From contig JAFGMC010000001.1 of assembly GCA_016927735.1 (NCBI GenBank), positions 1 through 61,327 on the forward strand: a DNA stretch of 61,327 bases, read 5' to 3'. Shown piece after piece: positions 7,685-56,988 of the stretch. The DNA is from Alphaproteobacteria bacterium (GTDB taxonomy: Bacteria; Pseudomonadota; Alphaproteobacteria; Rs-D84). The translations under genes were made by a program, and so were the position numbers. The notes beneath the pieces are model-generated. The model saw only the letters and a list, made by a program, of their open reading frames with translations. It was not told where the DNA came from and did not search any database. Every line of letters begins with the position of its first letter. The first letter of the stretch is position 1.

Positions 7685-10465
7685 ATGAAGAAAATTTTGT
7701 TTTTCCCCATAGTAATGGTATGTTTTGTGCTATGTGCGAATGCTGCTGTGCCGTCCCAAAGACGTAGTCAACCAACTACTGAAACTGATGGTGTTTCTTC
7801 GGTATCTGCACGATCTGCGATAAGATCTACAACAACTAGATCATCTGTATCAACTCCCAGTTCAACATCTCTACGAACAACTTCTGCACGATCTGCCGCA
7901 CCTGTTGCACAAACCACTGTCAGTGCGCGTGCAGGGACAACACAAAAAGTTATAAATACCGGTACAAAGATTTCTGCTGCAAATAAAAATATTGTTGTTA
8001 ATGAAGTTTGTAAACAAAAATACGAAGGTTGTATGGATTCTTTTTGTATGTTGGATAATGAAAACGGTGGACGTTGTTTATGCAGTAATCGTAAGTCAGA
8101 ATTGGATAAAGTTTTAGCGGAAATTCAAAAGCTGGATGCTCAAAGTTATAAAATGGCAACCGAGGGTGTAGAAAGAATAGAAATGGGTGCTGATGCTGAT
8201 GCTGCTATTGCGGCTGCAAACAATTCTGTAAAAAATTTATTAGAAGATAAAGAGTCTTCTACACGTAAACGTACGTTGGATTTGAATTTATGGAATCAAA
8301 CAGAAACAACAGATGAAGAAGACTTGTTTGCTGAAAAAGAACAAGGCGCATTGGATGGTAAAACAGGGGATGAATTATATAATTCAGTATCACAAATATG
8401 TGTTGCGCAAATCCCTGAATGTTCAAATGATATGCCAATGCTTCAAATGATTTATGCACAAAATATAAAATCTGATTGTGCAGCTTATGAAAACGATTTG
8501 ACCAAACAAAAAAATGCGAGTTCACAAAAATTAGCTGCTGCTGAAAAAGCTTTGCGTGATGCAGCTTTGGATTCATTGCGCGCTGCAAACAAATATGATC
8601 TGGGTCAATGTACAATTGAGTTTAAAAAATGTATGTCAAATACCGCAGGGTGTAAAGATGACTTTACGGGTTGTGTCGGAATTGCGGCTGCTGAAAATGC
8701 ACAAATGTCCAGCAGTTCTAAATCTTCTATGAAAAAGGTAGATATCAAAGGTTCTAATACAAAAATATCAGTTGCTGCATCAACAATGGATGCACTAGAA
8801 TCAAAAAAACCGATGTGTGATAATATTACAAATTCATGCGTTGCGGTAAAAGATCAAGTTTGGATAACTTTCTTGCGCGAAGTTGCACCAACATTAAAAA
8901 CAGCGGAATTATTGGCTGAATCTGATTTGCGTACAAACTGTATTGCAAATATATCATCTTGTTTCCAAAAAGCATGTAAAGATACTATGGATCCAAATGA
9001 TCCAGATGGTTCTTATGATATGTGTTTATCACGTCCAGATACTGTAAAATCTTTATGTAAGGTTCAAATTGATCCTTGTGTTGCGGCGGAACCACAGATA
9101 ATGGATTTTGTAAAGGCCCGTTTGGCTGCAATGCGTGTTGACGCATGTACACTGGAAGTTAAAGAATGTTTCACAAATGAAAACACATGTGGTGAAAATT
9201 TCCAAAATTGTATAGGTTTGGATTTGTCTGATATAAAGAAAATGTGCCCAATTGATAAATTGGTTGCTTGCCAGAAAAATGGATCTTTGAACGGAATTGA
9301 TGAACTGGATGATATTATCAAAGGAATTTATTTGAGTATAGATAATTCAATGCTTACACAATGCCAAGCTGCTGTTTCGGAAAAAATGATGGAACTGTGT
9401 GGCGGTACAGATCGTTGTGGTGCATTTGATGATGATAAATATATAGGTACAGAAAGTTTGGCCAGCTATAAAAATAATGACGGTGATTATGTTATAGAAG
9501 GTTTGATTTCTTTTGGAAATGTAAAGGTAGAAAAAACACAGAGTACAGATTCTGATGTTAAATTTGGCCGCTATGAAATCAACATAAACGATTACAAAAA
9601 TAATATGGATTCAACAGATGTTTTGAAATCGCGTGTGATTGCATCATTACAATCTACTGCAAACAAAATTAATCAAAAGATTGCAATATTGTCACAAGAT
9701 CCAAAAATTAAAATGTGTGTTGAAGGTCGTGATATGAGTCAGATATCGGGTAATAGAGCAAATAAAAATTCTGAAGCAAGATATCCTAACTTATTAGATA
9801 GTTCAATATTAACCATAATTAATTCTGGTTTGGAAAAAGCTAATTCTAATTACTCAAAAACTTATGATAATTTGGTAAAAACAGCAGTGGAAAACCAGGG
9901 TCATGATATCAAGTCTGTAATGTGTGCTGCGATGGCATCGGAAAAGAATCCACCAAAAACATGTAAATCAAGATCTAGATTCGGATTCTGTACAGAATAT
10001 GAAGTTATAAATCCATTTGAAAATATTTTCAGCGAAACCAGTGAAAAAGGTATGTCTGGTGATATGTATTCAACAAGATATGTAATTACTGGTGCAAAAG
10101 TTTCAACCTTGGCTGATATTGCAGCAGCTGGTAGATCAGATTTTACACAGACAGATGAAAAAGGAAATATGGTTGGAAAGGTTTCTATGTCAGCAGTTTA
10201 TTCACAATCTGACAGTACATGTAATATAACAACTGTCACAACAATGTGTGAAAGTATGAAAGAAATTATAACAACAGAAACAACCGATAGTTGTGATGGT
10301 GGTGGTTTCTCATTGATTGGAAGTAGTAGTTGTGATGGAAGTAGTGGTGGTATATTGTCTTTCGGTAGTGGAAGTCAGAGTACCAAAACCGTGGAAAATT
10401 TCCGAGGTGTTTCATGTATTAAATTTATGGAACCAAAGACTGTTACAAATTCTATAAGTATGTAA
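7685..10465 (+). CDS. large secreted Cys-rich protein, twin-CX6C paralog family (P1, 926 aa)
   Basis: signal peptide MKKILFFPIVMVCFVLCANA; S/T/R-rich linker; VCKQKYEGCMDSFC...RCLCS; CTIEFKKCMSNTAGCKDDFTGC; CTLEVKECFTNENTCGENFQNC. Confidence 0.9.
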   Translation: MKKILFFPIVMVCFVLCANAAVPSQRRSQPTTETDGVSSVSARSAIRSTTTRSSVSTPSSTSLRTTSARSAAPVAQTTVSARAGTTQKVINTGTKISAANKNIVVNEVCKQKYEGCMDSFCMLDNENGGRCLCSNRKSELDKVLAEIQKLDAQSYKMATEGVERIEMGADADAAIAAANNSVKNLLEDKESSTRKRTLDLNLWNQTETTDEEDLFAEKEQGALDGKTGDELYNSVSQICVAQIPECSNDMPMLQMIYAQNIKSDCAAYENDLTKQKNASSQKLAAAEKALRDAALDSLRAANKYDLGQCTIEFKKCMSNTAGCKDDFTGCVGIAAAENAQMSSSSKSSMKKVDIKGSNTKISVAASTMDALESKKPMCDNITNSCVAVKDQVWITFLREVAPTLKTAELLAESDLRTNCIANISSCFQKACKDTMDPNDPDGSYDMCLSRPDTVKSLCKVQIDPCVAAEPQIMDFVKARLAAMRVDACTLEVKECFTNENTCGENFQNCIGLDLSDIKKMCPIDKLVACQKNGSLNGIDELDDIIKGIYLSIDNSMLTQCQAAVSEKMMELCGGTDRCGAFDDDKYIGTESLASYKNNDGDYVIEGLISFGNVKVEKTQSTDSDVKFGRYEININDYKNNMDSTDVLKSRVIASLQSTANKINQKIAILSQDPKIKMCVEGRDMSQISGNRANKNSEARYPNLLDSSILTIINSGLEKANSNYSKTYDNLVKTAVENQGHDIKSVMCAAMASEKNPPKTCKSRSRFGFCTEYEVINPFENIFSETSEKGMSGDMYSTRYVITGAKVSTLADIAAAGRSDFTQTDEKGNMVGKVSMSAVYSQSDSTCNITTVTTMCESMKEIITTETTDSCDGGGFSLIGSSSCDGSSGGILSFGSGSQSTKTVENFRGVSCIKFMEPKTVTNSISM

Positions 10466-10470
10466 AAAAT

Positions 10471-10501
10471 AAAACGTCTGAATATTTTCAGACGTTTTTT
10501 T
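10471..10501. terminator. bidirectional terminator between convergent genes
   Basis: AAAACGTCTG aatatttt CAGACGTTTTTT. Confidence 0.85.
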
Positions 10502-10503
10502 AA

Positions 10504-11618: not shown

Positions 11619-13673
11619 ATGCACAAATTATTCAAGTCATTTGGACTTTCACTTGTTGGGATAGGGTCTGTTTTTATATTGGGTGCCGCGTGTGCCGCAG
11701 AAACAGGTCGTGCGACTTATAATAATGTTAATTCAGCCAATCGTGCAACTTTTGTCTCTGGACAACAACGTATGCCGACAATGGCAATTATACCTGGAAC
11801 TACAACTGGTAATCTTGTTGTAAATACTGGTACAACACCAGCGGTTGTTCCTTTATGTCCAGATGGCAGTGTTATGAATTCTGATTACAAAGTTGAAAAT
11901 TGCATGGATGATGTTTTATCTTGTGTAAATAATGGTGCATTACCTGGTGGATTAAATGATTTGTTTAACGAAGATTTGCGTAATTCTATTTTCAATGGAA
12001 TGAACCTTTGTGCGGTTCAAGTTGATAAATGTTTAAAGGATGTTCGTATAAATTGCAGAAATGTTTACAGCACTTCATCTGATTTCTGGATTGATTTTAA
12101 TTCAAGAAAGATTCAACCAGAATATTTTTCATTTGTTTTGCGTAAAACTGGTTTGACTCCAAACCAAGCAGAAAATACTTGTTGGTTATTGGATAAAAAT
12201 ACATATGGATCATCTTTTGATGCTATTTCTAATGACGGAAGTGTCACATCAGAATATAACAATAAGATTGGTGCATATAATAACCAAAGTGGCGGAAATT
12301 TAATTAAAAATTCACCACAAGGTGTCGCAGTTAATAATAATAATATTGGTGTCGATGGACAACGTGGTCACTATGCACGTTGGGATGCGGCAGCTGGTGA
12401 ATGTTTGGTACGTGTTGCTGCATATAACAAAGATTCACAAATCAAAAACAGTTGGTTGTTTGGTACATTGGGTAACGATGAACCAGCAGAAGTTTGGAAG
12501 GCAGCTGGTAAAAGCTTCTCTTGTAACAAAGATTTATTTGGATTCTCTTTGTTGAAAAATACAAACACAGTTGCGGTTGTTGGTGTTGGTGGTGGAACCG
12601 TTGTTGGTGCCGGTGTTGGTGCATTGGCTGGACATGGTAAACGCAGCTTTGATTGTAATAACAAAGATCATTTGAAAGAATTGACCAAAGAATTACGTGC
12701 AACAGGGAAGGTTGCTGTTTTAAACGAATATATGGATAACACATATTCAATTTCTTCTTCTGGTGTTGATGTAGATTCAGAACAATGTGAATCAATTGTT
12801 GAATTGTATGATACATATCAACAGGCCAAAGTTGCTGATAAAAGTTGTTCTGAGAAAACAGTTGCAAATACATCAAGCAATGAAACGAGAATAACATTCA
12901 CACAGTCTAATTTCCATGCTATTCCAAATGAAGTTAATGGATTTGATTATTCCCAGTATTTTGTTGAAGGAAATGAAACAGCAATTGCAATGCCTGTGCA
13001 GTTAACAACAGAACAAATAACAACCTTGAAAAATGGTGGATCTGTTGAAGTTGTTGTTCCTGGTAATAGCTCTACAGAAATTGCTAGTTCAAGCAATTGC
13101 ACTAAATTCCGTAGTTTAAATTTAGCGAAAAGGGACGGCAGAGGTGTTTATTGTACCGGTACATCAGCAAATTGTATTGAAAAAGAAGATTTCGTAAAAG
13201 AAGTCAGACGTCTGGGTGGTGTATTAGAACCAGTAACAATATTGCAAGGTGAAAAATCAAATATGTTGGCTGCTACTGCGATTGGTGCCGGTGTTGGTGC
13301 TGCAAGTGGTGGTTTGGCAACAGCAATCACAGCATTCGTTGAAAAGAACAATATTAACTGTCGTGTTGGTGATGGTTTGCAAAAGGTTGACTTTGGAAAA
13401 TCTTATAGCATCGGTTCATTAAAAGATTTCTATGTAAAGTGGAACTTGCGCTTGCCAGATACAATTATGCCAACTGCAACGGCTACAGATTGTGCCTCGT
13501 GGACAAATGCTTGTGCGACACTGAAAGATTTGAACCAGTGCGCAGCCGCACAAATCAATTATAAACCTGTTAATTCAACAAATACTACATTGGTAAGCAC
13601 TGCATGCGTTGTTTCCGGCAGTACATGTACAGTTAATCATCCAGTTGCGGTGTCTAATGGTGCATGCCAGTAA
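11619..13673 (+). CDS. secreted Cys-containing protein with two glycine-zipper segments (P8, 684 aa)
   Basis: signal peptide MHKLFKSFGLSLVGIGSVFILGAACAA; CMDDVLSC and CAVQVDKC pairs; SFSCNKDLFGF...VVGAGVGALAGHG and ATAIGAGVGAASGGLATA. Confidence 0.88.
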   Translation: MHKLFKSFGLSLVGIGSVFILGAACAAETGRATYNNVNSANRATFVSGQQRMPTMAIIPGTTTGNLVVNTGTTPAVVPLCPDGSVMNSDYKVENCMDDVLSCVNNGALPGGLNDLFNEDLRNSIFNGMNLCAVQVDKCLKDVRINCRNVYSTSSDFWIDFNSRKIQPEYFSFVLRKTGLTPNQAENTCWLLDKNTYGSSFDAISNDGSVTSEYNNKIGAYNNQSGGNLIKNSPQGVAVNNNNIGVDGQRGHYARWDAAAGECLVRVAAYNKDSQIKNSWLFGTLGNDEPAEVWKAAGKSFSCNKDLFGFSLLKNTNTVAVVGVGGGTVVGAGVGALAGHGKRSFDCNNKDHLKELTKELRATGKVAVLNEYMDNTYSISSSGVDVDSEQCESIVELYDTYQQAKVADKSCSEKTVANTSSNETRITFTQSNFHAIPNEVNGFDYSQYFVEGNETAIAMPVQLTTEQITTLKNGGSVEVVVPGNSSTEIASSSNCTKFRSLNLAKRDGRGVYCTGTSANCIEKEDFVKEVRRLGGVLEPVTILQGEKSNMLAATAIGAGVGAASGGLATAITAFVEKNNINCRVGDGLQKVDFGKSYSIGSLKDFYVKWNLRLPDTIMPTATATDCASWTNACATLKDLNQCAAAQINYKPVNSTNTTLVSTACVVSGSTCTVNHPVAVSNGACQ

Positions 13674-14009: not shown

Positions 14010-15791
14010 TTAACTAGTACAAGAATTTGCAAGAATTTCAATTGTGACGTTGCGACAATTTTCATCAGATTTTAGTCCGATTGTTGTACAATTAATCCAG
14101 CCATTACCAACGGTTTTAATATTGTTACTGTTAATGCCATTGTCGATTAATATTTTTCCGACATTTTCAGCACGTTTTTTACTCAGAGCATTATTTATTG
14201 CTTCACTTCCAGTTTTGTCAGTATTTCCAGAAACCAAATAACATACATCAGTCTGATTTTCTTTTACTTTTTCCGCAAAACTTACTAACTTACCCTTGAA
14301 TGGATCTTTTATATTAGATTCATTTGGGTTAAATGTACCTTGTGAAGGTAATGTTATCTGCGTTATTTTAGTTGTTTCTTGTTCAACATTATCATCAACA
14401 GTTGAATTTGAAGAACTGGCAATAGGTAGTTTAAAGTTATTGCTTGGTACAAAATTAATAGATGATTTAAATTCTTTTATTTTACAAAATATACCGTCAA
14501 TTTCTTTTGGTGAATTACATACACATTTTTTATTAACAAATTCAAAACCAAAAGTACAAGCGCATTTATTATCAGTTGTTTTAAATGCAAGTTTATCAGT
14601 TCCACAATCAACACTGATTGGTTTATCTACGCATTTACCTTCGGTATAAATTTTATTTGTATCATTGCACTCACAGCTTCCTTCGACTTCTGTTGCATCA
14701 GTTCCACAGTCAATTTTTTCTATTTTTATCTCTGTTATTTCTGTCTGAAGTTCTTCTGCTGCAACAGTGATAGTTTCATATTTTCTACTATTAATTTCAT
14801 CAGAGTTTTCTTTTACGGCATCTTTACCACCGTTTATAAGCATATTACCAATTGCACCAGCTGCAATTCCAGCGCCGGCGGCAATCATACCTGTTTGAAC
14901 CTTTTGGGCAGCAGCAGATTTTTGTGCGTCCCATGCGGCACCTGCGGCAGCATCACCAGTTAATGCATCTGAAACACTGACAAATGCACCACCAGTTTTT
15001 CCAATAGATTTATTGTCATACAATCCAGTAGTCGCTTTATCAAGAATTTTTTCTGATTCAATTCCCGGTGCTAATCCCAATGCTTCTTTGGTTGTTTTAA
15101 GTTCTGCAGCTAGTGTTTTGTATTCTGTATAAAGGGGTGTTAAAACATTTGCACCTGGCAATACAACTTCTTTTTCACCACCTTTGATATTTCTTCCTTC
15201 ACCATAATCGCATTGGAATGTGGCCAGATGTGCCTTCATATCTCTTTCTGCGGCTTCGTCTGCAGATTCTTCGGCTTTGCCTTCTAATAATTGGCTGACA
15301 CCGTATCCAGTTGCACCAATCGCAGCCGCTGTTAATGTGCGATTTTCAATAGAGTTTTCCTTGTCTTTCATTGCTTGGGCATTTTTTTCCAAGTCTGTTA
15401 TTTTATCGCTGGAAACTTCTTTTGCAACTGGGGTTATTTCTTCTGGATTTATTTCTTCCGATTCTGTTTTCTTAGTTTCTTCTGTTGTTTTTTCATCTTT
15501 ATCAGAGGCATCTTTTTTTGTGAACAATCGTTTTAAAACACCTGTTTTTTCTTCTTCTTTGATTTCTTTTTGTGGTTCAGTTTTAGTGTTAATTTTAAGA
15601 GGTTCAGTTTTACTGCTGATGGTATTGGTTATACCTGTAAATTTTGTTGGTTCTATTTTTTTTAATATAGGTTCTTCACGATTTATTGTATTTTCTACAT
15701 CTTTTTTAGTTTCATTATTAGTGATAGGGTCTGCATAGCCAAAAGGCATTAATATTAAGATAGAAAAGAAAATCAATAATAATTTTTTCAT
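14010..15791 (-). CDS. secreted OmpA_C-domain protein with Cys-rich EGF-like middle and glycine zipper (593 aa)
   Basis: C-term CYLVSGNTDKTGSEAINNALSKKRAENVGKILIDNGI (OmpA-like); CGTDATEVEGSCECNDTNKIYTEGKCVDK...CACTFGFEFVNKKCVC. Confidence 0.88.
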   Translation of the reverse strand: MKKLLLIFFSILILMPFGYADPITNNETKKDVENTINREEPILKKIEPTKFTGITNTISSKTEPLKINTKTEPQKEIKEEEKTGVLKRLFTKKDASDKDEKTTEETKKTESEEINPEEITPVAKEVSSDKITDLEKNAQAMKDKENSIENRTLTAAAIGATGYGVSQLLEGKAEESADEAAERDMKAHLATFQCDYGEGRNIKGGEKEVVLPGANVLTPLYTEYKTLAAELKTTKEALGLAPGIESEKILDKATTGLYDNKSIGKTGGAFVSVSDALTGDAAAGAAWDAQKSAAAQKVQTGMIAAGAGIAAGAIGNMLINGGKDAVKENSDEINSRKYETITVAAEELQTEITEIKIEKIDCGTDATEVEGSCECNDTNKIYTEGKCVDKPISVDCGTDKLAFKTTDNKCACTFGFEFVNKKCVCNSPKEIDGIFCKIKEFKSSINFVPSNNFKLPIASSSNSTVDDNVEQETTKITQITLPSQGTFNPNESNIKDPFKGKLVSFAEKVKENQTDVCYLVSGNTDKTGSEAINNALSKKRAENVGKILIDNGINSNNIKTVGNGWINCTTIGLKSDENCRNVTIEILANSCTS

Positions 15792-15805: not shown

Positions 15806-17116
15806 TTATTTTCCATTTGTTTGTTCTGTAGGTAGAATTTCTTGTACCGATGTTGTTGTTTTATCTCCACCCAATTCGCTTTTCGCAGCATCTAATGCAC
15901 CGCTTGCTTTTTGTGAATCCATTGCGCGACCAATTGAACCGGATGAAATCGCCCCCGCTGCAACACCAACGCCGGCACCCAACATAGCAGAAGAGGCCGA
16001 TGTTTGTTCACGTGTTAAACGATATGCATTTTCTTTATAAGTTGTCACATCAATTCCAAACCAATCCTGATTACAATCAAATGAATCCCCAGCATATGAT
16101 TTTTTTGATGCCATTGGTGATTCAGAATTTCCAGCAAACAGATTTACCGTGAACACGCAATCCAGACTGCGTTCGTCAAATAATGCACCAAATCTTTTGC
16201 ATTCATTAGACATTAAGTCACGCAATTCATATAAACGTGCTTCGTCTTTTTGTACCTGAACCTCTGCATTATTACGCAATGTCCCAAAAACTTGTTGGAT
16301 TCTGTTGGTCAAACCGTTATCAATTTTTTGACAATCACTCGCAATACTGGCACATGCAGAAACAGCCATGTCGCTGGTGGATTTTCCAATACATTTTGCA
16401 AAATTATTACCACATTGTGAAATCATACATTTGTTATATTTATTTCCACAATCAATCGTTTCATTATAAGAAGACATTTTTGCATTAAAATCACGATCTT
16501 CCCTTATTTCGGCTGCAAATAATTGAAATTCTTCGCCAGAACAATTTGAACTGCGTTTACAAGAATTTAATTTATCACCCCAAATTGTATCGCCATCGCC
16601 CGAACATCCTGAAAAGTCATTTTTACATTTTTGTTTCATACATGTTCGTAAGTCTGTATCGCAAGAATTTTTTCCAGAAGTAAGCGCATTTGTCGCAGCT
16701 TTTTTTGCAATGGTTTGTATATCGTTTGCATCCAGTGCAGCACGTTGATTGCGTATCATATCCGCACGTGTGTCTGCTGATTTATCACCAGAACTTGAAA
16801 CAGTATTTTCCAATATCGAATTAAACTGTGAAGATTTGTTTTCAATAATATTGTTTTCTGTTATTTGGTTTTCTTCGGTTGTTTCAACAGGGTCTTCAAT
16901 TATTTGTTCAATATTTGATTCTTGAATATTTACAGATGGCATTCTGCTGGCGACATTTGCCCGTGGTGCAGTGCGAGTTGTTCCAACCGCAACCCTTTGC
17001 GCAACCTTGGTTTCTGCAAATGAATCAGATGTAAAACAAAGAATAGATGACAAGCAACCTATTGCGGCAATTTGCAATAATCTGGATTTTGAGAAAATGA
17101 CTTTATCAAATTTCAT
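15806..17116 (-). CDS. secreted Cys-rich protein, twin-CX6C modules plus glycine zipper (P6, 436 aa)
   Basis: CDTDLRTCMKQKCKNDFSGC; CGNKYNKCMISQCGNNFAKC; AMLGAGVGVAAGAISSG. Confidence 0.88.
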   Translation of the reverse strand: MKFDKVIFSKSRLLQIAAIGCLSSILCFTSDSFAETKVAQRVAVGTTRTAPRANVASRMPSVNIQESNIEQIIEDPVETTEENQITENNIIENKSSQFNSILENTVSSSGDKSADTRADMIRNQRAALDANDIQTIAKKAATNALTSGKNSCDTDLRTCMKQKCKNDFSGCSGDGDTIWGDKLNSCKRSSNCSGEEFQLFAAEIREDRDFNAKMSSYNETIDCGNKYNKCMISQCGNNFAKCIGKSTSDMAVSACASIASDCQKIDNGLTNRIQQVFGTLRNNAEVQVQKDEARLYELRDLMSNECKRFGALFDERSLDCVFTVNLFAGNSESPMASKKSYAGDSFDCNQDWFGIDVTTYKENAYRLTREQTSASSAMLGAGVGVAAGAISSGSIGRAMDSQKASGALDAAKSELGGDKTTTSVQEILPTEQTNGK

Positions 17117-19104: not shown

Positions 19105-22100
19105 ATGAAGTATATCAAGATTTTTTTGTTTGCATGTTTTTTTGCACCTTCGTCTTTGTTTGCAGCGAATGATTTTCAAGTTGCAGCACAATTATTATCA
19201 GCCGCAAAAAATGCGGATATCCAACAGGTTCAAGCGCTGGTAAATAATGGCGCAAATATTAATTATATTGATAATACAGGTTTGTCTGTTGTTTGTACTG
19301 CTTTGATGAATAATGATGTTCGCGCGGCGCAAATTCTTCAAATGTATGGTGCAGATGCGTCAAAATGTGATATGCAAATTAAGAGATATAATCAAAAATT
19401 ACCCAAAGAGCAATCTGGGGGTTTGTTTAGCGGGCTGTCCTCTGCCCAAAGCATAGCATTAGCGGCGGCGGGAGCCGCCGTTGTTGTTGGCGGTTTATTT
19501 TTCCTGACAGATATGTTAGATGCTGGTAATACAAATACTACATCTACTACGGATGGGACCAGACCTGGTGGTGATACCACGGATCCAACAACCGCAACAG
19601 CTGCTTTTGTTTTGCCGTATGGACCGGCTATGCCTAATGCTACTTCTGAGACGGCTAATTATATAACAAACCTTAATTATTACAGTCCTTCGGCAGATGG
19701 TATTTTAAAAGACAATTTTGCTTTGATGACAAATACCTATGCACAAAATTATTTATTAATGATGCATGGTTATTCACCGCTTGCACGTGGTTATATGGGA
19801 ATGCGAACATTACGTGATACAACAACACGTGCACCAATCAGTTTGGCTGGAAATAATTTGGGGTCTGAACCGGTTTTGGGTGCACGCCCAACCAATGTTG
19901 CGCTGATTACAACAAATGGTATAAACGCAACATCAAAACCAGCTGGCGAAATTTCTGAAACAGGTTCTTCATTAGATGACAAGTTGTTGTTGTGGACAAC
20001 AACAAATGTAAATGGTACTGCGGCCAGTGGTGCCAGCAACGATATGATATCCAGTAAATATTATAATAATAAAATTGTTCGTGGGGCTGATAACAACTCA
20101 TTAATTGATGATTCAACAGAAGAGGATTCTGTGTCTTTAAGTTTATATGATTTATCTGGATATGGAACTGTTATTAATAATACATTTTCGACTGAATTAG
20201 ATGATTTGTTGGCAAAGGTTGTTGGTGGAAAAGATACAGGATACACAACAGCTGATTATGTTGGATTTATGCCAAATGGTCAAATGACAATTTTCAGAAC
20301 TGGTGGTGGTGTGGGGATGAAAACCGGATCTGGTGCGGTATCTGGAACATATACTGACGAAGGTGATGGTGTGTGGGGTACAGGGGATACTCTGGACTTA
20401 TTTGGTCATACTTTGATTGTAACTGTTGATTCAACAGGTTTGGGATTTACTGCAACAGATGGTACAAATACATATAACGGGTATCGCGGAACTGATGGTT
20501 TAGTGTATTTTGATAGTGATGATGATGCAGCCGCAGACCAGGCCTATACAATTGAAACCGGTGGCGATTTAATATTGTCAAAAGAATTGGGTGCAATGGA
20601 TTATCTTAATTACAAGGCACTTTATACAGCTGGGCTTTTATGGGCAACAGGGGATTTGTCAAATGGTCGTTCAAAACCAGATATTGTCGCAAATGCTTCA
20701 GTAATTGATCCTTTACATGAACGTGATGCCGCAACAATTTTAGATATTTTATCGGTATCATCTACGGTTCGTCAAACCGCATTTATAAATTTAATTAATC
20801 AATATTATGATGTCGATACAACAGATGGTGTTGCGGGTGCAGATGCGTTACCAGGTACAGATGCTGCCAGCTTCTTTGGTGGACTGGGATCTTCATTTTC
20901 ACCAATTACAATTTTTTCGACAGGTGCTGCGGAAACAGATAGTTCTTATTCAGGAGCCACGTTGAGTGCCACTTTTGAAAACTCTGCACCATTAATATTC
21001 AGTAATTTGGAACATTTATTTATGTCTGTTGTTGCTGTTGGATTAACAGGAACCGGTACAAATGGAACAACTAGTGTTTCAAGTTATTCGCCATCTGGTA
21101 AAATAGCGTTAACCCAATGGCACGATACAGATGCGGATAAGTATTATAAATCACGTGTTTGCGGTATTGGCGGCAGTGGTGCAAATGGTATAGATCCTTG
21201 GTGTTTTTCGGCGGCTGGTGTGACGGATGAATTGGCAGTGGCCAGTATGGCCGGTGCAGTGGGTGTAATAAAATCTGCATTTGATTATTTGAATAATAAA
21301 CAATTATTCGCTTTGTTGGCATTGACATCTGATGGTCCATACCTTGCAACGAATACATCTGGAACCGCAATAACAGATACTGAATTAACATCTTATTTAA
21401 AAGCAATGTATCAAATGCCAGAAGAGTATCAGTACAGATGGGAATTTGGCAGTGAAGATTATTTGGATGTATTCAAAGAAGTTTTCGGATACGGATTAAT
21501 TAATCTGGAACGTGCAACAAAACCGGGCAGCAAGATTTATTATTATGATGGTACCAATATAGTATCTACCAGTGGTGATGCATATTGGCGTTCAGCTTCG
21601 AGTACTATTTTCCGATCATCAATTATATTTAATCCACGAACTTCATCAATCAGTGCACCGTTTTACGATGTTTTAACCAGTGTTGATGGAACATTGTCTT
21701 TGCCACGTATTTGGGAAAATGAATTTACACTGGGGACAACTGATATTCGTTCATTATATATGGGTGATATTCTGGGTGAATTCAAAGTTAATAAAGATGA
21801 AACACAAAAATTTAAAACAGGAAATATGACATTTGAAATGGCTGTATCTGAAAAACCTTATGCTGATAATATGGGTGGATTAGATAATTTACAGTTTGGA
21901 TATGATGTTGGTAATTTCGAATTAAGCGCGGGCTATCAAGGATATTTTACAGATGGTGTATCCAGATTTGATGGAACTGCTAATCCTGTTTTATCTTTGG
22001 CTTCGCATACTGTTTCGTCCAGTGCAAAATATAAATTTGGTAATTGGTCATTTGGTGCACGTGGATTTTCTGGAAGTATAACCGATGAATCATTATTAGA

Positions 22101-22758
22101 AAATGATCCAACTGTGACGAATCAATATCAACCTGCAAATTTAGGATTGATACAAGGTGCTGAATCAAATGTTACATGGGGTAGTGGAAAATTTGCAATT
22201 ACATCGTCAATTGGTACCGCACATGAAACAGATACTGTTTTGGGTGCACAAACTGGTGGATTATTGGGTTTGGGACAGGGTGATACAACTTATATTGATA
22301 CAGTCGCAACATATGCGCCGGTCAAAGATATAAATTTCTCTTTGCGTTCTACATTTGCAACTACACATGCAAACCCTACTGGTGAATATATATTGGGCAT
22401 GTCGGATATAGAATCCAATGCATTTTCAATTGGTGTTGATGCTGGTAAATTTTCATTTGCGATTGCGGCCCCGTTAACAATAACTTCTGGTGATATGCAA
22501 TATGCATATGCTGATTATGAAACTGTTGAAAACGCAGATGGAAATTTTGATTTGATTGTAAATGATACACATATAGAAGATTTGAATTTGTCACCAGAAA
22601 ATCGTGAAATTCGCTTTTCGGGTGCGTATCGTGTAAAACTGGGAACATTTACAGATGGCGCTTTTGGATTTATGTATCGTGTTAACCCAAATAATATCAG
22701 CGAGTTTGGAAATGAATCAATATTTATGATGAAGTTTACGCATAAGGTTGGAATATAA
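19105..22758 (+). CDS. subtilase-like autotransporter with N-terminal ankyrin-like segment (1217 aa)
   Basis: signal peptide; ALVNNGANINYIDNTGLSVVCTALMNNDVRAAQILQMYGAD; VASMAGAVGVIKSAF...GYGLINLERATKPG as in S8 autotransporters; C-terminal beta-barrel-like repeats. Confidence 0.7.
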   Translation: MKYIKIFLFACFFAPSSLFAANDFQVAAQLLSAAKNADIQQVQALVNNGANINYIDNTGLSVVCTALMNNDVRAAQILQMYGADASKCDMQIKRYNQKLPKEQSGGLFSGLSSAQSIALAAAGAAVVVGGLFFLTDMLDAGNTNTTSTTDGTRPGGDTTDPTTATAAFVLPYGPAMPNATSETANYITNLNYYSPSADGILKDNFALMTNTYAQNYLLMMHGYSPLARGYMGMRTLRDTTTRAPISLAGNNLGSEPVLGARPTNVALITTNGINATSKPAGEISETGSSLDDKLLLWTTTNVNGTAASGASNDMISSKYYNNKIVRGADNNSLIDDSTEEDSVSLSLYDLSGYGTVINNTFSTELDDLLAKVVGGKDTGYTTADYVGFMPNGQMTIFRTGGGVGMKTGSGAVSGTYTDEGDGVWGTGDTLDLFGHTLIVTVDSTGLGFTATDGTNTYNGYRGTDGLVYFDSDDDAAADQAYTIETGGDLILSKELGAMDYLNYKALYTAGLLWATGDLSNGRSKPDIVANASVIDPLHERDAATILDILSVSSTVRQTAFINLINQYYDVDTTDGVAGADALPGTDAASFFGGLGSSFSPITIFSTGAAETDSSYSGATLSATFENSAPLIFSNLEHLFMSVVAVGLTGTGTNGTTSVSSYSPSGKIALTQWHDTDADKYYKSRVCGIGGSGANGIDPWCFSAAGVTDELAVASMAGAVGVIKSAFDYLNNKQLFALLALTSDGPYLATNTSGTAITDTELTSYLKAMYQMPEEYQYRWEFGSEDYLDVFKEVFGYGLINLERATKPGSKIYYYDGTNIVSTSGDAYWRSASSTIFRSSIIFNPRTSSISAPFYDVLTSVDGTLSLPRIWENEFTLGTTDIRSLYMGDILGEFKVNKDETQKFKTGNMTFEMAVSEKPYADNMGGLDNLQFGYDVGNFELSAGYQGYFTDGVSRFDGTANPVLSLASHTVSSSAKYKFGNWSFGARGFSGSITDESLLENDPTVTNQYQPANLGLIQGAESNVTWGSGKFAITSSIGTAHETDTVLGAQTGGLLGLGQGDTTYIDTVATYAPVKDINFSLRSTFATTHANPTGEYILGMSDIESNAFSIGVDAGKFSFAIAAPLTITSGDMQYAYADYETVENADGNFDLIVNDTHIEDLNLSPENREIRFSGAYRVKLGTFTDGAFGFMYRVNPNNISEFGNESIFMMKFTHKVGI

Positions 22759-33928: not shown

Positions 33929-34687
33929 CTAGAAATGTTCAGCTTTTTTTGCAGTTGAAACACTCTGCATTTTATCAAACAATGTTGTGGCACTGCTGGT
34001 ATCTGTTGGGTAATCTACAACTGGTGCAGTTCCCGTACTTGTTTTTTTATCAGATCCATTTAATACAATAATTCTTGTTGGCAAAAGATTATCACCTTCG
34101 CATTCAATATAATATTTACTTAGGTCAAAATATTTTCCATAACAACGTTGATTTAAAACACCGACCCAACCATTTTGTGCAAGTTCTTTGCATGTTGGTT
34201 GTGTTCCAGTTTTAACTTCGCCGGTTGGTAATGTTTCAGTTGGGTTATCCAAAACACCATTGCACCATACTTGCACAAAGTTTCCATCAACCGATGTAAG
34301 GCTTCCATTAGAAGTTGTTTTTCTTGTACCAAAGCAATCACCATTTAAGACATTGATATCAAAATTTGAATCTATTCCATTACCACTTGCAAGTTCTGTT
34401 TTAGACATAGTAACAGTATCAGTATCATCTTCTACAACAGTAGCTTCTGGACAAATTATTTTCATACCCCAACAATTACTTGTGGTGTCCCAAACATTTG
34501 TATCAAAACCAGCTCCCATTTTGCTATAACAGTTTGTTGGACTGGGTCTGCAAACGGTTGGTTGTAACCACCATGGAACACTTGAAGAAGTATCAGGAGC
34601 AGGGGCACCCAAAACATTACAAGTAATGCCCACACATAAAATTCCGAAAATTAAAGATTTAGAAAATAATTTTTTCATATTATACAT
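33929..34687 (-). CDS. secreted hypothetical protein with threefold Cys-aromatic-Gly repeat
   Basis: signal peptide MKKLFSKSLIFGILCVGITCNVLGA; SNCWG..., GDCFG..., QRCYG... units. Confidence 0.75.
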   Translation of the reverse strand: MYNMKKLFSKSLIFGILCVGITCNVLGAPAPDTSSSVPWWLQPTVCRPSPTNCYSKMGAGFDTNVWDTTSNCWGMKIICPEATVVEDDTDTVTMSKTELASGNGIDSNFDINVLNGDCFGTRKTTSNGSLTSVDGNFVQVWCNGVLDNPTETLPTGEVKTGTQPTCKELAQNGWVGVLNQRCYGKYFDLSKYYIECEGDNLLPTRIIVLNGSDKKTSTGTAPVVDYPTDTSSATTLFDKMQSVSTAKKAEHF

Positions 34688-43253: not shown

Positions 43254-43283
43254 AAAAAATCCGCCATTTGGCGGATTTTATTT
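43254..43283 (-). terminator. terminator after MotB/OmpA-like gene
   Basis: AAAATCCGCC atttg GGCGGATTTT-type inverted repeat. Confidence 0.7.
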
Positions 43284-44521
43284 TATCTGTTGGTCAGGCG
43301 CAATTCTATGCGACGATTTTTTTGCAGACTGACAGAGTCATTTCCCAGTTCAACTGGATACATTTCACCAAATCCGCTTGGTATTAATCTGCGTTTGGAT
43401 ACACCAGAATTTGACAATTCATCAGAAACTGCTGTGGCACGCAACAAAGATAATTGCGTATTGTTTTTGTATTTTGGGTTGCCTGGAATAACAGGTGTTC
43501 TATCTGTATGACCATCAACACGGATAATCCAATTTACATCTGTTGGGATTTTACCTTCTAGATCCTTGATTACGTTTGCAAGTAAACGTAATTGATTTTT
43601 ACCTTCTGGTGATAGTGTATATTCACCACTGGCAAACAAAATATCACTGGAAATAATAAATCTATCACCATCTTGTTTAATACTGGTTCTGTCACCCAGT
43701 GCCAATTTTATTGCTTTGTAAAAATCAGATTGATATTGGGATACTTTGGTCAGTTCAGCAACCTTGTCAGCCAATGCTTTGTTAAGGCGACTGGATAATT
43801 CAACATACTGAATTTCTTGTGATTGCGATTTTGCCTCTGCCGCATCCAGTGAAGCTTGTAATTTTGCCAATTGTTCTGATAATGCCATACGTTGCGCTTC
43901 CATATCGGATTGTAATTTACGACGTTGTTGTTCCAATTCAGAAGTTTTTTGCTTGTCTACGGTTGCTTGATTTAATTGAGAGTTCAATAAAGCAATCATT
44001 TCTTGCATATCGTTTTCAGATTTTTGCAATTCATAAACCTTATTTTCATAAGATGTTACCAGTTCTTGCAAACTCATATCTTTTTCTTGTAATTCAGAGC
44101 CCAGCTGATTAATTTGATCTTCAAGATTTGTTTTAGTGTTTTGCAGTTCAACAGTTTTATTCTGAAGCTCGGCAGTTTTGTTTTGCAATTCAGCAGTTTT
44201 GTTTTCAAGAATTTTAGTTTTATTTTCCAATTCATTTCTGCTGTTTTGTAAATTTTCCAGTTCACTGCGTGCCAAAATCAATAAACGTTTTGCTTCTTGT
44301 TCATCTGCGGTCATTTGAATAATTGACTGTGATTGCTGGGCATTTGTCTTTTTTAATTCAACAATAGTTTTAATACCGGTGCTTTTATTAAAAACGCTGG
44401 TTGTTGTCCATAAGAACACAAATACAATTAATAAGAAAATAAGTATAATCACCAGGTTGGAAAATAAATCCACAAATCCAGGCCATGTATTAGTCTTTTC
44501 GCGAAAACGAATATTTAACAT
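43283..44521 (-). CDS. MotB/OmpA-family protein with long coiled coil
   Basis: N-terminal TM; heptad coiled coil; C-term INWIIRVDGHTDRTPV..., LSLLRATAVSDEL, RRLIPSGFGE. Confidence 0.85.
   Translation of the reverse strand: MLNIRFREKTNTWPGFVDLFSNLVIILIFLLIVFVFLWTTTSVFNKSTGIKTIVELKKTNAQQSQSIIQMTADEQEAKRLLILARSELENLQNSRNELENKTKILENKTAELQNKTAELQNKTVELQNTKTNLEDQINQLGSELQEKDMSLQELVTSYENKVYELQKSENDMQEMIALLNSQLNQATVDKQKTSELEQQRRKLQSDMEAQRMALSEQLAKLQASLDAAEAKSQSQEIQYVELSSRLNKALADKVAELTKVSQYQSDFYKAIKLALGDRTSIKQDGDRFIISSDILFASGEYTLSPEGKNQLRLLANVIKDLEGKIPTDVNWIIRVDGHTDRTPVIPGNPKYKNNTQLSLLRATAVSDELSNSGVSKRRLIPSGFGEMYPVELGNDSVSLQKNRRIELRLTNR
44139..44243 (-). repeat. five 21-bp tandem units encoding ELQNKTA heptads
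   Basis: 44139-44159, 44160-44180, 44181-44201, 44202-44222, 44223-44243. Confidence 0.75.
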
Positions 44522-44554: not shown

Positions 44555-45346
44555 TCAGGTCAATTTTGAAACTGTTTTTTCCAATTTTTGAACCGCCCGT
44601 GATAATTCTTTGGTTGCCAAGTTTATTTGTGGCAGAGTCCCCATTGTATCAAACCCGTTTGATTCAGATATTCTTGCACGTGCTGACAAGTTTTCTTCCA
44701 GATCACGAAATATGGAATTCTGTGCAAGTTGTACCTGTAATCCCAAAAATCCAACAATCAAACTGCCCGCCAATCCGAACAGAGAACTGGTAAATGCGGT
44801 TCCCATTCCAGCAAGTGGTTTCGCAAGTCCCATTTGAACAGCATTCATTATATTTTCATCATCAAAATTTAAATTGCCAACCAATTCTGCGAATCCACCG
44901 ACAGTGTGTATTAATCCCCAAAATGTCCCGAGCAATCCTAAAAATATTAATGTGTTTGTTATGTATCGCACAGATTCACGTTGATCCTCGAACCTGCCTA
45001 TTATCATATCCAAAAAATTGCTCAACGTATTCGTTGAAATCACATTATTATTTTTTTCGCTGTGTTGTAATATTATCGCAACAGGTCGCAGTAAACGTGG
45101 TGGTAATTTAGAACTTTTATTTTCAACAAAATATTTTTTCATCCATCTGTATTCAGGAAGTAATTTGAAAATGTCAGCAAAGCACAATCCAATACCAAAT
45201 ACAGTTGCACCTATGATTATGCCATTCAACCAAATGTTTGTGACAGCAATACTCAGGAATTGTTTATTGAACAAAATTACCCCGGCAATTACAAACGCAG
45301 CAAACAAAGCCATTCTATTAAGATTTCTGTGAAACTGATTACTCAT
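44555..45346 (-). CDS. MotA/TolQ/ExbB-family proton channel protein
   Basis: YITNTLIFLGLLGTFWGLIHTVGGFAEL...GLAKPLAGMGTAFTSSLFGLAGSLIVGFL. Confidence 0.88.
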   Translation of the reverse strand: MSNQFHRNLNRMALFAAFVIAGVILFNKQFLSIAVTNIWLNGIIIGATVFGIGLCFADIFKLLPEYRWMKKYFVENKSSKLPPRLLRPVAIILQHSEKNNNVISTNTLSNFLDMIIGRFEDQRESVRYITNTLIFLGLLGTFWGLIHTVGGFAELVGNLNFDDENIMNAVQMGLAKPLAGMGTAFTSSLFGLAGSLIVGFLGLQVQLAQNSIFRDLEENLSARARISESNGFDTMGTLPQINLATKELSRAVQKLEKTVSKLT

Positions 45347-47517: not shown

Positions 47518-48345
47518 ATGACTTGGACAGTACTAGTTCTGATATTGGGAGTTGCTCTCTATTTGTTCGGTGATATGATCATCAAACAAAAAGGTGGAAA
47601 ATCTCAAGAATCTAGAATGAATTTGATAAAAAATTCAGCAAAAGTTCTGGCAATCGTTTTGATCGCTGGCAGTGTATGTCGTCTGTGGACACCATACTAT
47701 CTGACATCAGTCAATCCATCTATATTGCAAGAGATGGCACAGGGTATGCAGGAAAAGAAGAGCATGAATAATAATCGTGAAGTTCGTCGTTATGTTCGTT
47801 CTAATATGAACAAAATGGTGGCTGATGCACCAGTAATAGGAAAAGCTGATGCAGAAAAAACAATATTTGTTTTCACAGATTATTCTTGCCCATATTGCCG
47901 CCGTGTACACGGTGAATTGCAACGTGTGTTAAAAGATCGTTCAGATGTTCGTGTTGTTGTAAAAAACTTTGCGATACATGGACCATTGTCTGATTCACCA
48001 GCACGCGCTGTTATTGCTGCAAAATTGCAGGGTGACGACAAAGCTGCAGTATTAGATAACGCATTAATGACTCGTGAATTTTATTCTCAGAATGATTTGA
48101 AAGATCAATCAAAATTGGGTGATAAGGTTCATAGCAATGTTATGAAAATGGCAAAAGAAGCTGGTTTGGATGTTAAAAAACTAGAATCTGATATGAAGGG
48201 ACCAGTTGTTGCACGTGAATTGGCACAGGTTCGTGAATTAGCAGAACGTTTCCAAATTGGTGGAACACCATTCTTGATTATTGGCGACAGTGCTTTTCCA
48301 GGCGCTATCCCATACGATCAAATCATGGGTGCTTTGAATAAGTAA
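47518..48345 (+). CDS. DsbA/Com1-like thiol:disulfide oxidoreductase with N-terminal TM segments
   Basis: IFVFTDYSCPYCRRVHGELQRVL...ARELAQVRELAERFQIGGTPFLIIGDSAFPGAIPYDQI. Confidence 0.92.
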   Translation: MTWTVLVLILGVALYLFGDMIIKQKGGKSQESRMNLIKNSAKVLAIVLIAGSVCRLWTPYYLTSVNPSILQEMAQGMQEKKSMNNNREVRRYVRSNMNKMVADAPVIGKADAEKTIFVFTDYSCPYCRRVHGELQRVLKDRSDVRVVVKNFAIHGPLSDSPARAVIAAKLQGDDKAAVLDNALMTREFYSQNDLKDQSKLGDKVHSNVMKMAKEAGLDVKKLESDMKGPVVARELAQVRELAERFQIGGTPFLIIGDSAFPGAIPYDQIMGALNK

Positions 48346-51178: not shown

Positions 51179-51718
51179 TTAAAATACATAACGCAGTTTT
51201 ATACGGAAATCATAACCGAACAAGTCTGGTTTCAGAGTATAAAATTCTACGAAATTAGGTACATACAATGCACGTGCTTCTAAATCAATTTTAAACGGCA
51301 TTACAGGCATATCAAATGTTATACCCAACATACCTTGGTATGCAGCAGTTGATGAAATATCGGTTGTGTCTGCATATGTACCATTAAATGCTGTACCAAT
51401 ACCGATACCCATGTATGGCTTGATAACTGTTGATGGCATTTTCAAGTATGCATTCAACATAGCCAAATCCATTTTAATGTCAGAATTGCTTAGATGATTA
51501 TATTCAACTTCGGCACGTAATACTGGGATATCAATACCGAACACTGCACCATATGTAAATGCTGAATCACTGGCCTTGTCATCACCACTGAATAATGTGA
51601 TACCACCAGAACCAGCAGTTGCGCCAGCATAGACATCCATAACTGCCCCAGCATTTGCATTAGCTGTAAAACCCAGAACAGAAACCAAAGTCAAAAGACC
51701 GGTTGTTTTTAATTTCAT
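51179..51718 (-). CDS. small outer-membrane beta-barrel protein (start ATG 51718)
   Basis: signal peptide MKLKTTGLLTLVSVLGFTANANA; alternating strands; C-terminal FRIKLRYVF. Confidence 0.8.
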   Translation of the reverse strand: MKLKTTGLLTLVSVLGFTANANAGAVMDVYAGATAGSGGITLFSGDDKASDSAFTYGAVFGIDIPVLRAEVEYNHLSNSDIKMDLAMLNAYLKMPSTVIKPYMGIGIGTAFNGTYADTTDISSTAAYQGMLGITFDMPVMPFKIDLEARALYVPNFVEFYTLKPDLFGYDFRIKLRYVF

Positions 51719-51765
51719 ATTTTTCTCCTTTGTGTAATAATATGATAAGACAAAGAGAGTCATAT

Positions 51766-52290
51766 ATGCAAGAAAATAAACCGGTTTTAATTGTTGGGTT
51801 GGGAAATCCAGGGGATAATTATAGATATACAAGACATAATGTTGGTTTTATGGCGGTCGACTTTTTAGCAGGTTCAGATTCAACTTGGAAAAAAGAAAAA
51901 GATGCGCAGACAACGCACATCAATGTTGATGGGTATAAAGTAATAATTGCAAAGCCACAAACATTTATGAATAACAGTGGGATTCCTGTTCAGGCTTTGA
52001 TGGTTTTTTATAAAATCCCGCTTGAAAATTTAATTGTAATTCACGATGATATGGATTTAAAAACGGGCAGTGTCCGGGAAAAAATTGGTGGCGGCAGTGC
52101 AGGGCACAATGGAATAAAATCTCTGGATAATAATGTTGGTAAAGATTATACGCGTATCAGAATTGGGATTGGTCACCCACGTGATACAGGTTCATTAATT
52201 GATCCATCTGATTGGGTTTTGGGAAAATTTTCAAGTGATGAATTAAAAGAAATAAAGTCTGCAATAAAAACGATAAAAATTATTGATTAG
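51766..52290 (+). CDS. pth: peptidyl-tRNA hydrolase (start ATG 51766)
   Basis: LIVGLGNPGDNYRYTRHNVGFMAVD...KPQTFMNNSG...HDDMDLKTG...GGGSAGHNGIKS. Confidence 0.97.
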   Translation: MQENKPVLIVGLGNPGDNYRYTRHNVGFMAVDFLAGSDSTWKKEKDAQTTHINVDGYKVIIAKPQTFMNNSGIPVQALMVFYKIPLENLIVIHDDMDLKTGSVREKIGGGSAGHNGIKSLDNNVGKDYTRIRIGIGHPRDTGSLIDPSDWVLGKFSSDELKEIKSAIKTIKIID

Positions 52291-53374: not shown

Positions 53375-53398
53375 TTAATAAATGTTTATATACAATAA

Positions 53399-53854: not shown

Positions 53855-53895
53855 TCTACACTCCTTTTGTTGTGTTTTTATGTTTATGTATATAC

Positions 53896-53923: not shown

Positions 53924-53964
53924 ATATATAAAGAAAATAACAAAACATATGTTAATAAGTATTT

Positions 53965-56900
53965 TTAATATTTTATAAGTAAATTATTAAGAGTATTTGT
54001 TGGATAAACAGATCCGCTGTTGTTTATTTTATTACAGTTTACGCTTTCACCGCCAAATGTATAATCGGAATTTAATGTTCCCCATACCTTACTGTTAAAA
54101 TCAAATACACATTTTGATCCAGAGTTAGCGTCCAAACTATAAAAATTGTATGGATACATTGTTTGTTGGACCTCTGTATCTGATGGTTCGCCAGCAGAAT
54201 CTAAATTAAATAATGGGCTCATATAAACACCTGTATCATAACCGATAACAATGAAATATCCACCATCACACTCTAATCCTTGCCCGCTCGGCCAGCCAGT
54301 TGCAGCATCAACATCTGTTGCTGATAATGTTCCATCAACACATAATAATATATTTATACTGGATTTATAGTAATTAACATCACCATCAAATGCGGCGACA
54401 AAAGTGACACTGGTTGTTGGGCCAGAACTTGGGGCACATATATTTGAAGACTGAGAATATTGATTTGTATAATAATAATTGTTAAGAATATATGGCTCGA
54501 GTCCTGGAACCGACAACAATGATTCACAACAATTACCATAGATATCTTTAAATCCATCTGGGCAACAGTTTGTCCAGGATGATGAAATAAACAATTGGTC
54601 TTCAATTGTACATATTTGTTTATCCGAAGATAAATTAGAAGCAAGTTCGCAAGTAGTCACACCATCAATAATTATAGGTACATATCCAGCACCACAAGAT
54701 GTATCGCGACAACTGTCAATAAGTTCAGTTGTTCCTGTATTTTCTGCAAACCAAGATAACAAGGTATCTGTATCTGATGAAGTTTCCTTTATCATATTTT
54801 GTGGAATTGTATCCAAATCGGTGTCTTGACGAAATTCGCAATTTCCCCAAATTTTTTCTGCAATACGACATGTCCCACAATCAGGTTGACCAAATGTTCC
54901 ACATGTTGCGCAAATATCATATACACAAGATTGACTGGATGGGTCACAATTTATAGATTCGTTCGTTCTGACGGAATTTATTCCGTAGTTTTCTGTATAG
55001 AAATCACCACTAGAAGCAGAAGGTGTTTTTCCAAATTTTGTCATTATGCTTGAAATAGAATCACCTCCAGCATCTGCCACGCATTGAACAACATCTTCCC
55101 AACAAGCAGAGCGATTTATAATAGATTTTCTATTAACAGACTTATCAACACTTTCACAAAGTCCGAAATTACCAGAAACAGATTTGCAAGTTTGAATAAT
55201 ACAAGCCTTGCCAACTTCGCGACAAGTTTGAACAATAGTGTCGAATGTTTTATCTGTTTGAATTTCCGTCATACCGCCAACCCAATCAGAATCACCACCA
55301 GTCATTTGTAATAAGGCAGTGCAGGCGGTTTTTACACCATCGCACATTTCATTAACAGTTTTATCCGCAGTCACACCAAAAATAGAAAGTGCACGTGCAT
55401 CAAAATCAGAAATTGATTTAGCTGTGTCTGATAAGCATTCTGTTGTCAAAGATGTACAGCTTTGACGCATATCTTCCAACTTTTTTTCTTGGGCCAGTTT
55501 TATCTGTGATAATGCATCTTCTATAAATGCGTCCCAAACATCATCGGCAATATCTTGGCAATTTTCCATTGCAGGTTCTAAATAAGTTTTCTTTGAATTT
55601 AAAAAAGTCACAAATTGACTGTTGCCACTGACTTCTGTCCAATTCTGATTACCTGTTGGTCTGGTTATCAGATTACCCAAATTAACTAAATTCACAGTCA
55701 AGAATGCTTCGCCTGTCGAAGGATCAATATATCTTCCAGTAATATCCAAACATTTGCCCAGATCTGTGCCGCAAACAGATGAACTGGTCATCATATCCAG
55801 TATTTTCTTTTTACATGCAAGAATATCATCAGAATTACGTTTTTGATGAATGTCCAGTCTGGACATATCCAGTAATGCGCTGCCTTCACGAACTTTATCA
55901 ATAGCTTGCTCTTGCATTGTTTCGTATGCCTTGGCGACTGTATTACAATCTTGTTCAATTGCCATTTGATAACTGCTTTCTACAATTGATGCGCCATCGG
56001 CGTCACAAATCTCGGCTGCCATTTCGCGACATACAGGAATTGCTGCATTGTAAAGAGCTGTTCCTTCTTTTGCGCTGGTTGCAGCGCCGAGTGTAGAATC
56101 TATATCGTCAAAAGCAGAATCGGTATTCAAAGATAAAGATATTGCAGATAAATCTTTGTTAAAGTTATTATCAGTTGTGCTGGCTTTTAATTTTTTTGAT
56201 ATCTGATCCAGAATACTTTTCGAATCTGATTTATCATCTTGTTGGTATGCAACTTCCCCATCAGTTGCAGTTGATATAGCAGCAGCGTCTTCTTCATCCA
56301 TATTTACAGTTAATAAACGTTCATTAAAATCCAGAATTTTATCTTCAACTTTTGACATTTTTTCTTTTATTTTATCAAAATCATGAATTCTGGTTGAACA
56401 AGCACATCTTTTTAATTGTGTATCTTTGTTTGCACAAAATTCATCCATACAGCTGTAATAAACCTCACGACATTTTTTATAATTAGGTGCTGCAGAAGCA
56501 TTATCATTTTTTACATCATTATTTGTTGCAGCGCGCGCAACACTGGCGCGGGTTGCCGATCTATTGACTTTTATTGATTCAGCTGTTCCACGATTTGCAG
56601 TTGTACGTAAAGATACAGCAGGTGTTTCAATAGCAGAACGGTTTATACTGGTTCTTCCTGAAACTTTTTGATTTACAGTTGAACGACCCTGAACGGTTAT
56701 GTTTCTTGGATTGTTTGATAGATTTGTTTTTGTAGATTCACGTGTTGTCACAGATCTATCTTTGGAATATGTGGAAGCATCTGCTTTTTGAGAATTATTA
56801 ACAGTCCTTGATGCAGATGATATTGCTGGCGTATAAGAATTGTCAGTTTTTTGGCGCACAGAAACAACAGCGTTTGCAGCATTTCGTTTTGCAGCAGCAC

Positions 56901-56988
56901 GCGCACTGTCAATTATATCATCAGCATAAACCGCATGAATCCCAAGCGGTACAACGCAAATAGCAAAAAGCAATGCAAGTTTCTTCAT
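53965..56988 (-). CDS. large secreted Cys-rich protein, twin-CX6C paralog family (P5, 1007 aa)
   Basis: KCREVYYSCMDEFC...RCACS; DDVWDAFIEDALSQIKLAQEKKLEDMRQSC; CREVGKACIIQTC. Confidence 0.9.
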   Translation of the reverse strand: MKKLALLFAICVVPLGIHAVYADDIIDSARAAAKRNAANAVVSVRQKTDNSYTPAISSASRTVNNSQKADASTYSKDRSVTTRESTKTNLSNNPRNITVQGRSTVNQKVSGRTSINRSAIETPAVSLRTTANRGTAESIKVNRSATRASVARAATNNDVKNDNASAAPNYKKCREVYYSCMDEFCANKDTQLKRCACSTRIHDFDKIKEKMSKVEDKILDFNERLLTVNMDEEDAAAISTATDGEVAYQQDDKSDSKSILDQISKKLKASTTDNNFNKDLSAISLSLNTDSAFDDIDSTLGAATSAKEGTALYNAAIPVCREMAAEICDADGASIVESSYQMAIEQDCNTVAKAYETMQEQAIDKVREGSALLDMSRLDIHQKRNSDDILACKKKILDMMTSSSVCGTDLGKCLDITGRYIDPSTGEAFLTVNLVNLGNLITRPTGNQNWTEVSGNSQFVTFLNSKKTYLEPAMENCQDIADDVWDAFIEDALSQIKLAQEKKLEDMRQSCTSLTTECLSDTAKSISDFDARALSIFGVTADKTVNEMCDGVKTACTALLQMTGGDSDWVGGMTEIQTDKTFDTIVQTCREVGKACIIQTCKSVSGNFGLCESVDKSVNRKSIINRSACWEDVVQCVADAGGDSISSIMTKFGKTPSASSGDFYTENYGINSVRTNESINCDPSSQSCVYDICATCGTFGQPDCGTCRIAEKIWGNCEFRQDTDLDTIPQNMIKETSSDTDTLLSWFAENTGTTELIDSCRDTSCGAGYVPIIIDGVTTCELASNLSSDKQICTIEDQLFISSSWTNCCPDGFKDIYGNCCESLLSVPGLEPYILNNYYYTNQYSQSSNICAPSSGPTTSVTFVAAFDGDVNYYKSSINILLCVDGTLSATDVDAATGWPSGQGLECDGGYFIVIGYDTGVYMSPLFNLDSAGEPSDTEVQQTMYPYNFYSLDANSGSKCVFDFNSKVWGTLNSDYTFGGESVNCNKINNSGSVYPTNTLNNLLIKY

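Follow-up and report, generated by a model that had tools for sequence, protein, structure and literature searches.

Large Cys-rich exported proteins encoded in the window

Five long genes, P1 to P5, lie in the 61,327-nucleotide stretch of Rs-D84 DNA that was analysed (the window). They encode members of an undescribed family of large, Cys-rich, exported proteins. Our preferred reading, held at about even chances, is that the family forms an order-specific, multi-subunit envelope scaffold, stapled by disulfides and located in the periplasm or at the outer surface. We infer the assembly of nine members together, their location and the scaffold role. The five genes are:

7685-10465, forward strand: P1, 926 aa; signal peptide; basic S/T/A/R-rich linker; core domain at 7982-8698; 40 Cys; adjoins rplQ
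37599-39731, forward strand: P2, 710 aa; core domain at 37830-38504; 36 mature Cys; C-terminal Gly-zipper at about 39534-39674
39759-42254, forward strand: P3, 831 aa; core domain at 39900-40634; 36 mature Cys
34733-37123, reverse strand: P4, 796 aa; core domain at 35957-36733; 25 of 31 orthologs have an odd mature Cys count
53965-56988, reverse strand: P5, 1007 aa; core domain at 55726-56499; 43 Cys

A sequence-only reading had assigned the five proteins to one paralogous exported family, which our analysis confirms: they are intact, exported, Cys-rich paralogs. All five reading frames are open throughout and each begins with a strong hydrophobic signal segment, as had been claimed. In P3, an in-frame ATG located 18 bp upstream (39741) is also possible; the start at 39759 gives the better signal peptide. 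The sequence motifs listed by that reading were each found in the protein named, except for the “LYN” box attributed to all five, which is LYT in P3. The same reading overlooked other paralogs, further Cys-rich genes nearby and the absence of DsbB and VKOR.

The five members counted at first are real but too few. A search with a profile of P1-P5 found more members on contigs C1, C7, C8, C13 and C14 of the same genome (764 kb, 90% complete). The same core of about 230 residues is present in nine proteins, which occupy about 2.9% of this reduced genome, and at least three further members, on C1, C7 and C8, are divergent. The codon pattern for CMDxFC is found at nine places in the genome, its reversed control at none. 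Chance sharing of motifs is ruled out by this control, by the profile search and by CX6C shuffles. The divergent relative on contig C1 (L031:6653-9715) is a Cys-rich protein of 1020 aa in which C-x6-C modules recur (13 CX6C); it also has two Gly-zipper stretches.

When 22 members, drawn from six families within the order, are aligned, 12 positions of the core domain are invariant. Among them are the two Cys of CMDxFC, CxC, G and L in GxxLY, and several Cys further on. After the signal peptide, the elements follow each other in the order CMDxFC, CxC, GxxLY, C...DC, CX6C and CGxxFxxC. In some distant members, the first Cys is absent or the motif is replaced by LDDFC-type variants. The linkers of P1, P4 and P5 are basic and the C-terminal parts of family members are variable. 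In another taxonomic family of the order (G386; L123, L131, L138), long GRSGRSG-type repeat arms precede the core domain.

Distribution and orthologs

The family was found in 114 of 114 genomes and 18 of 18 genera of the order Rs-D84, and in none of the 380 other Alphaproteobacteria and 397 other Pseudomonadota sampled. Thus, among the Pseudomonadota sampled, it is restricted to one order. Copies outside the taxonomic family of the window are fewer and more divergent. The only look beyond Pseudomonadota was a scan for a peptide pattern in 84,980 species genomes, which gave 546 confirmed stretches. Among the 79 loci listed of these 546, the titles are only proteobacterial, with one “uncultured bacterium”. 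The closest public relatives are metagenome-assembled genomes labelled “Alphaproteobacteria”, “Rickettsiales” or Candidatus Enterousia, many of them from rumen or faeces. Ca. Enterousia belongs to GTDB order Rs-D84, whose members have reduced genomes, are fermentative, lack a respiratory chain and probably depend on partners (PMC12306168).

A maximum-likelihood tree built from core domains pairs the nine members of the source genome one to one with those of two other genomes, G068 and G188. Eight of the nine ortholog trios form clades, the C7b trio being drawn unresolved, and long-branched distant members are placed unsurely. The tree has two subgroups, P1/P2/P3, where P1 and P3 are sisters and P2 comes next, and P4/P5/C7a/C7b/C13/C14. 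P4 and P5 had been described as a second subgroup; both do lie inside it, but the closest paralog of P5 is located on contig C14 and is not P4. Orthologs of P2 and P3 have a median identity of 65% with the window proteins; the median is 53% for P4 and 45% for P1, against 77% for ribosomal protein L17. The gene order P4-P2-P3 recurs in about thirty loci. In the window, infA sits between P4 and P2. In most P1 loci, rplQ adjoins P1. Several relatives (L068, L069, L071-L074, L091) carry tandem arrays of two or three P1-type genes; P2 and P3 are not duplicated in this way.

Neighbouring genes

Besides P1-P5, the window carries further genes for exported Cys-containing proteins:

11619-13673, forward strand: associated exported Cys-rich protein, 684 aa; 23 Cys; five CX6C; Gly-rich hydrophobic segment
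17121-17993, reverse strand: associated exported Cys-rich protein, 290 aa; 21 Cys; first of a three-gene run
15806-17116, reverse strand: associated exported Cys-rich protein, 436 aa; 17 Cys; two C-x6-C-x4-C-x6-C modules; Gly-zipper; second gene of the run
14010-15791, reverse strand: associated exported protein, 593 aa; 15 Cys; C-terminal OmpA-family domain (Pfam PF00691); third gene of the run
33929-34687, reverse strand: small exported Cys-containing protein, 252 aa; 11 Cys; conserved downstream of P4

The protein encoded at 11619-13673 has no Pfam match and is conserved downstream of P1 in relatives. More generally, homologs of the nearby Cys-rich genes recur close to P1 or to P4/P2/P3 in relatives. 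Several of their products have CX6C modules and Gly-rich hydrophobic segments; they are grouped with the core family by neighbourhood.

Other genes of the window deserve mention. A membrane protein with an OmpA domain (43283-44521, reverse strand) adjoins 44555-45346 (reverse strand), whose product has no Pfam match and looks to us like a MotA/TolQ/ExbB channel. Many relatives also have the two genes next to P2-P3, with identities of about 60%. A 1217-aa exported protein (19105-22758, forward strand) has an ankyrin-repeat match near its N-terminus, unusual for an exported protein. The product of 57218-58663 (forward strand) matches a Protochlamydia outer membrane protein family, PF17251, above the cut-off. 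Adjoining P5, 52287-53357 (reverse strand) encodes a Cys-rich protein (24 Cys) with a Listeria-Bacteroides repeat and without the core domain. Also near P5, 53399-53854 (reverse strand) and 59549-60685 (forward strand) have a Bacteroidota-like look; one has a lipoprotein-type N-terminus ending SCEKDE and the other is an exported protein. These genes may have been acquired horizontally from gut Bacteroidota, or may reflect a binning problem.

Searches for known families and folds

No family match above a curated cut-off or over most of a protein was obtained in Pfam, NCBIfam or PHROGs, where only short sub-threshold matches appeared. The core domain alone has no Pfam match at E ≤ 0.01, and its profile has no significant match to PDB sequences. 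At the sequence level, the family thus appears to have no known relative in any library searched. These results and the genome surveys bear out the earlier view of clade-limited paralogs without a recognisable Pfam or other known family; no strong match to a characterised family was found, and none of the five lacks an export signal. A match of P5 to the NCBIfam thiamine phosphate synthase model covers 60 residues, lies far under the cut-off and was discarded. The Gly-zipper of P2 gives weak matches to PF13441 and PF05433 over about 45 residues, below curated cut-offs. Because the PHROG matches of P2 to tape-measure proteins span the Gly-zipper alone, a phage origin was rejected. In viral contigs, none of 18 pattern matches encodes a relative.

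AlphaFold2 models of P3 (mean pLDDT 74.9, pTM 0.46) and P2 (73.8, pTM 0.41) are mostly helical, and their local confidence is good. In view of these low pTM values, we trust the helices and not the domain arrangement. In the P2 model, C-terminal strands flank a low-confidence Gly-zipper helix pair on both sides. Foldseek searches of the PDB with these two models, of pTM 0.41-0.46, gave best E-values above 1, and BFVD gave no fold match, with nothing below E = 0.001.

Possible envelope structure or contact apparatus

The earlier suggestion of a “major envelope or extracellular structure” is plausible. An envelope structure fits the presence of the family throughout the order, the fixed orthologs, the conservation of Cys, the Gly-zipper and the nearby OmpA-domain gene. 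LpxC was found in 18 of 20 genomes of the order, so that an LPS outer membrane is likely. Together with MreB, RodA and MrdA, encoded in published genomes of the order (PMC12306168), this suggests an ordinary LPS outer membrane and peptidoglycan that need no replacement scaffold. Loss of LPS as the reason for a substitute scaffold is accordingly unsupported, LpxC being present.

The main rival, compatible with an envelope scaffold, is a secreted or surface apparatus for host or partner contact. Adhesins or a nanomachine would serve attachment and nutrient uptake, the core forming a stalk and the basic arms binding anionic surfaces. Surface proteins are often tandemly duplicated, and the tandem P1-type copies of several relatives point this way, as do the basic linkers of P1, P4 and P5 and the variable C-terminal parts. 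Rs-D84 bacteria also have many hypothetical membrane-bound proteins, and partner-dependent lives are thought likely for them (PMC12306168). In contrast, the fixed repertoire and the strong conservation of P2 and P3 resemble a housekeeping structure more than a surface in an arms race, and no adhesin or secretion-system domain was found in Pfam and NCBIfam searches. We regard a contact apparatus as rather unlikely, if worth keeping in mind.

Cysteine patterns and redox context

P2 orthologs share 36 invariant Cys, most of them common to P1 and P3 too, and 28 of 31 have exactly 36 mature Cys, counted after removal of the signal segment by a simple rule. Across 85 P1/P3 orthologs, 33 columns are at least 95% Cys. 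The variable Cys of P1/P3 come in pairs: 792/826 in 62 of 62 cases, another pair in 30 of 30 and a third in 11 of 12; in P4, the pairs are 637/659 (25/25) and 662/668 (24/24), all without correction for kinship. The mature count is even in P1 (49/55), P2 (29/31) and P3 (30/33) and odd in P4 (25/31). Parity and pair counts ignore relatedness, so they do not represent independent events.

The commonest Cys spacing is of six residues (C-x6-C), not that of CxxC or CxxCH clusters, and would place both Cys on the same side of a helix. P1, P2, P3 and P5 each contain more CX6C pairs than any of 500 shuffled versions; P4 does not. Because of the paired variation and the even counts, disulfides are favoured over metal ligands in P1-P3, and the patterns argue strongly for intramolecular disulfides in these proteins. 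P4 may carry an unpaired Cys that could cross-link. The signal segments argue strongly for export of the family members. Other exported proteins of the window (e.g. 27854-29575, 51179-51832 and 58746-59369) carry 0-1 Cys, which makes the Cys-rich family an exception.

A candidate oxidant of the family is encoded in the window:

47518-48345, forward strand: DsbA-like thiol oxidoreductase; CPYC motif; N-terminal hydrophobic segments; Pfam PF01323

A DsbA-like protein is present in 19 of 20 genomes across the order. DsbB and VKOR were found in none of the 20, positive controls being detected, and DsbD in one. Proteins with 36 invariant Cys in a lineage lacking DsbB and VKOR imply a further oxidation route or another job for the thiols. 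For one clostridial DsbA, small thiols are reported to be able to restore the oxidised form in E. coli (PMC12453122). The thiols could also stay reduced, which counts against the scaffold.

In that case, the proteins would be reduced, exported metal- or cofactor-binding proteins used for metal storage or electron transfer, with Cys as ligands. The lack of DsbB and VKOR and the rarity of DsbD favour this idea, as does the tendency of obligate anaerobes to exclude Cys from exported proteins (PMC12453122). The paired gain and loss of Cys, the even counts in P1-P3, the dominance of C-x6-C spacing and the conserved DsbA-like oxidase all argue against it and make it improbable. Secreted effectors or toxins aimed at hosts or partner cells would also be exported, large, lineage-specific and without known family, but their occurrence in all sampled genomes of the order as one-to-one orthologs with conserved housekeeping neighbours, and the lack of any toxin domain or viral relative in Pfam, viral-contig and BFVD searches, make this very unlikely.

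The proposed disulfide-stapled scaffold compared with known systems

In the envelope scaffold that we favour, each member would have a Sec signal peptide, usually followed by a flexible, often basic S/T/R-rich arm. The core would then run from CMDxFC...CxC through a long helix to GxxLY...C...DC, and through a second long helix to C-x6-C and CGxxFxxC, before the variable C-terminal part. The mature proteins may fold as mostly helical bodies stapled by disulfides, and the C-terminal glycine-zipper hairpin of P2 may insert into a membrane. The membrane-anchored DsbA-like protein would probably make the disulfides and be re-oxidised without DsbB or VKOR, for example by small-molecule disulfides.

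In the chlamydial outer membrane complex (OmcA, OmcB and MOMP), disulfides within and between proteins brace the envelope (PMC6752827). Both systems have Cys-rich exported proteins in a host-associated diderm with a reduced genome, and, judged from sequence alone, the highly Cys-rich exported proteins with paired Cys found here share this part of the chlamydial way of working. However, the Pfam families of OmcA and OmcB gave no match at E ≤ 1 with whole proteins or at E ≤ 0.01 with the core, and, unlike Omc proteins, the Rs-D84 family consists of large helical proteins in nine groups. Chlamydia trachomatis has DsbB, whereas in the 20 genomes of the order searched the DsbA-like protein was found in 19 and DsbB in none. 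As for the intermolecular cross-links of the chlamydial outer membrane, the sole hint here would be the odd Cys of P4.

Cys pairs at helix-repeat spacing staple helices in the twin CX9C and CX3C helical hairpin proteins of the mitochondrial intermembrane space. Only this principle is shared; the Rs-D84 proteins differ in their CX6C spacing, far larger size and Sec-type signal, and no sequence or fold match was found. P2 also has a C-terminal Gly-zipper segment in common with glycine-zipper envelope proteins of the Rickettsia 17-kDa antigen or SlyB type, but this concerns about 45 residues of one member, the other ~650 residues of P2 being unrelated.

Significance for Rs-D84

Rs-D84-type bacteria are gut inhabitants of termites, livestock and poultry. 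Their envelope biology is undescribed, and they are believed to need partner cells. Being order-specific, present in every genome sampled and as large as about 2.9% of the genome, the family is an obvious candidate for a structure involved in this partner dependence. A disulfide-rich envelope scaffold is already a known kind of structure; the sequence family itself is without known relative. It also offers a test case for the rule that anaerobes without DsbB or VKOR keep Cys out of exported proteins. More speculatively, and with doubt clearly outweighing confidence, the nine members and the co-located Cys-rich and OmpA genes would form one unknown envelope machine that defines the order, its DsbA returning to the oxidised state with no need of DsbB, VKOR or a respiratory chain. 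If true, an anaerobic lineage expected to shun exported Cys would have built its envelope from Cys.
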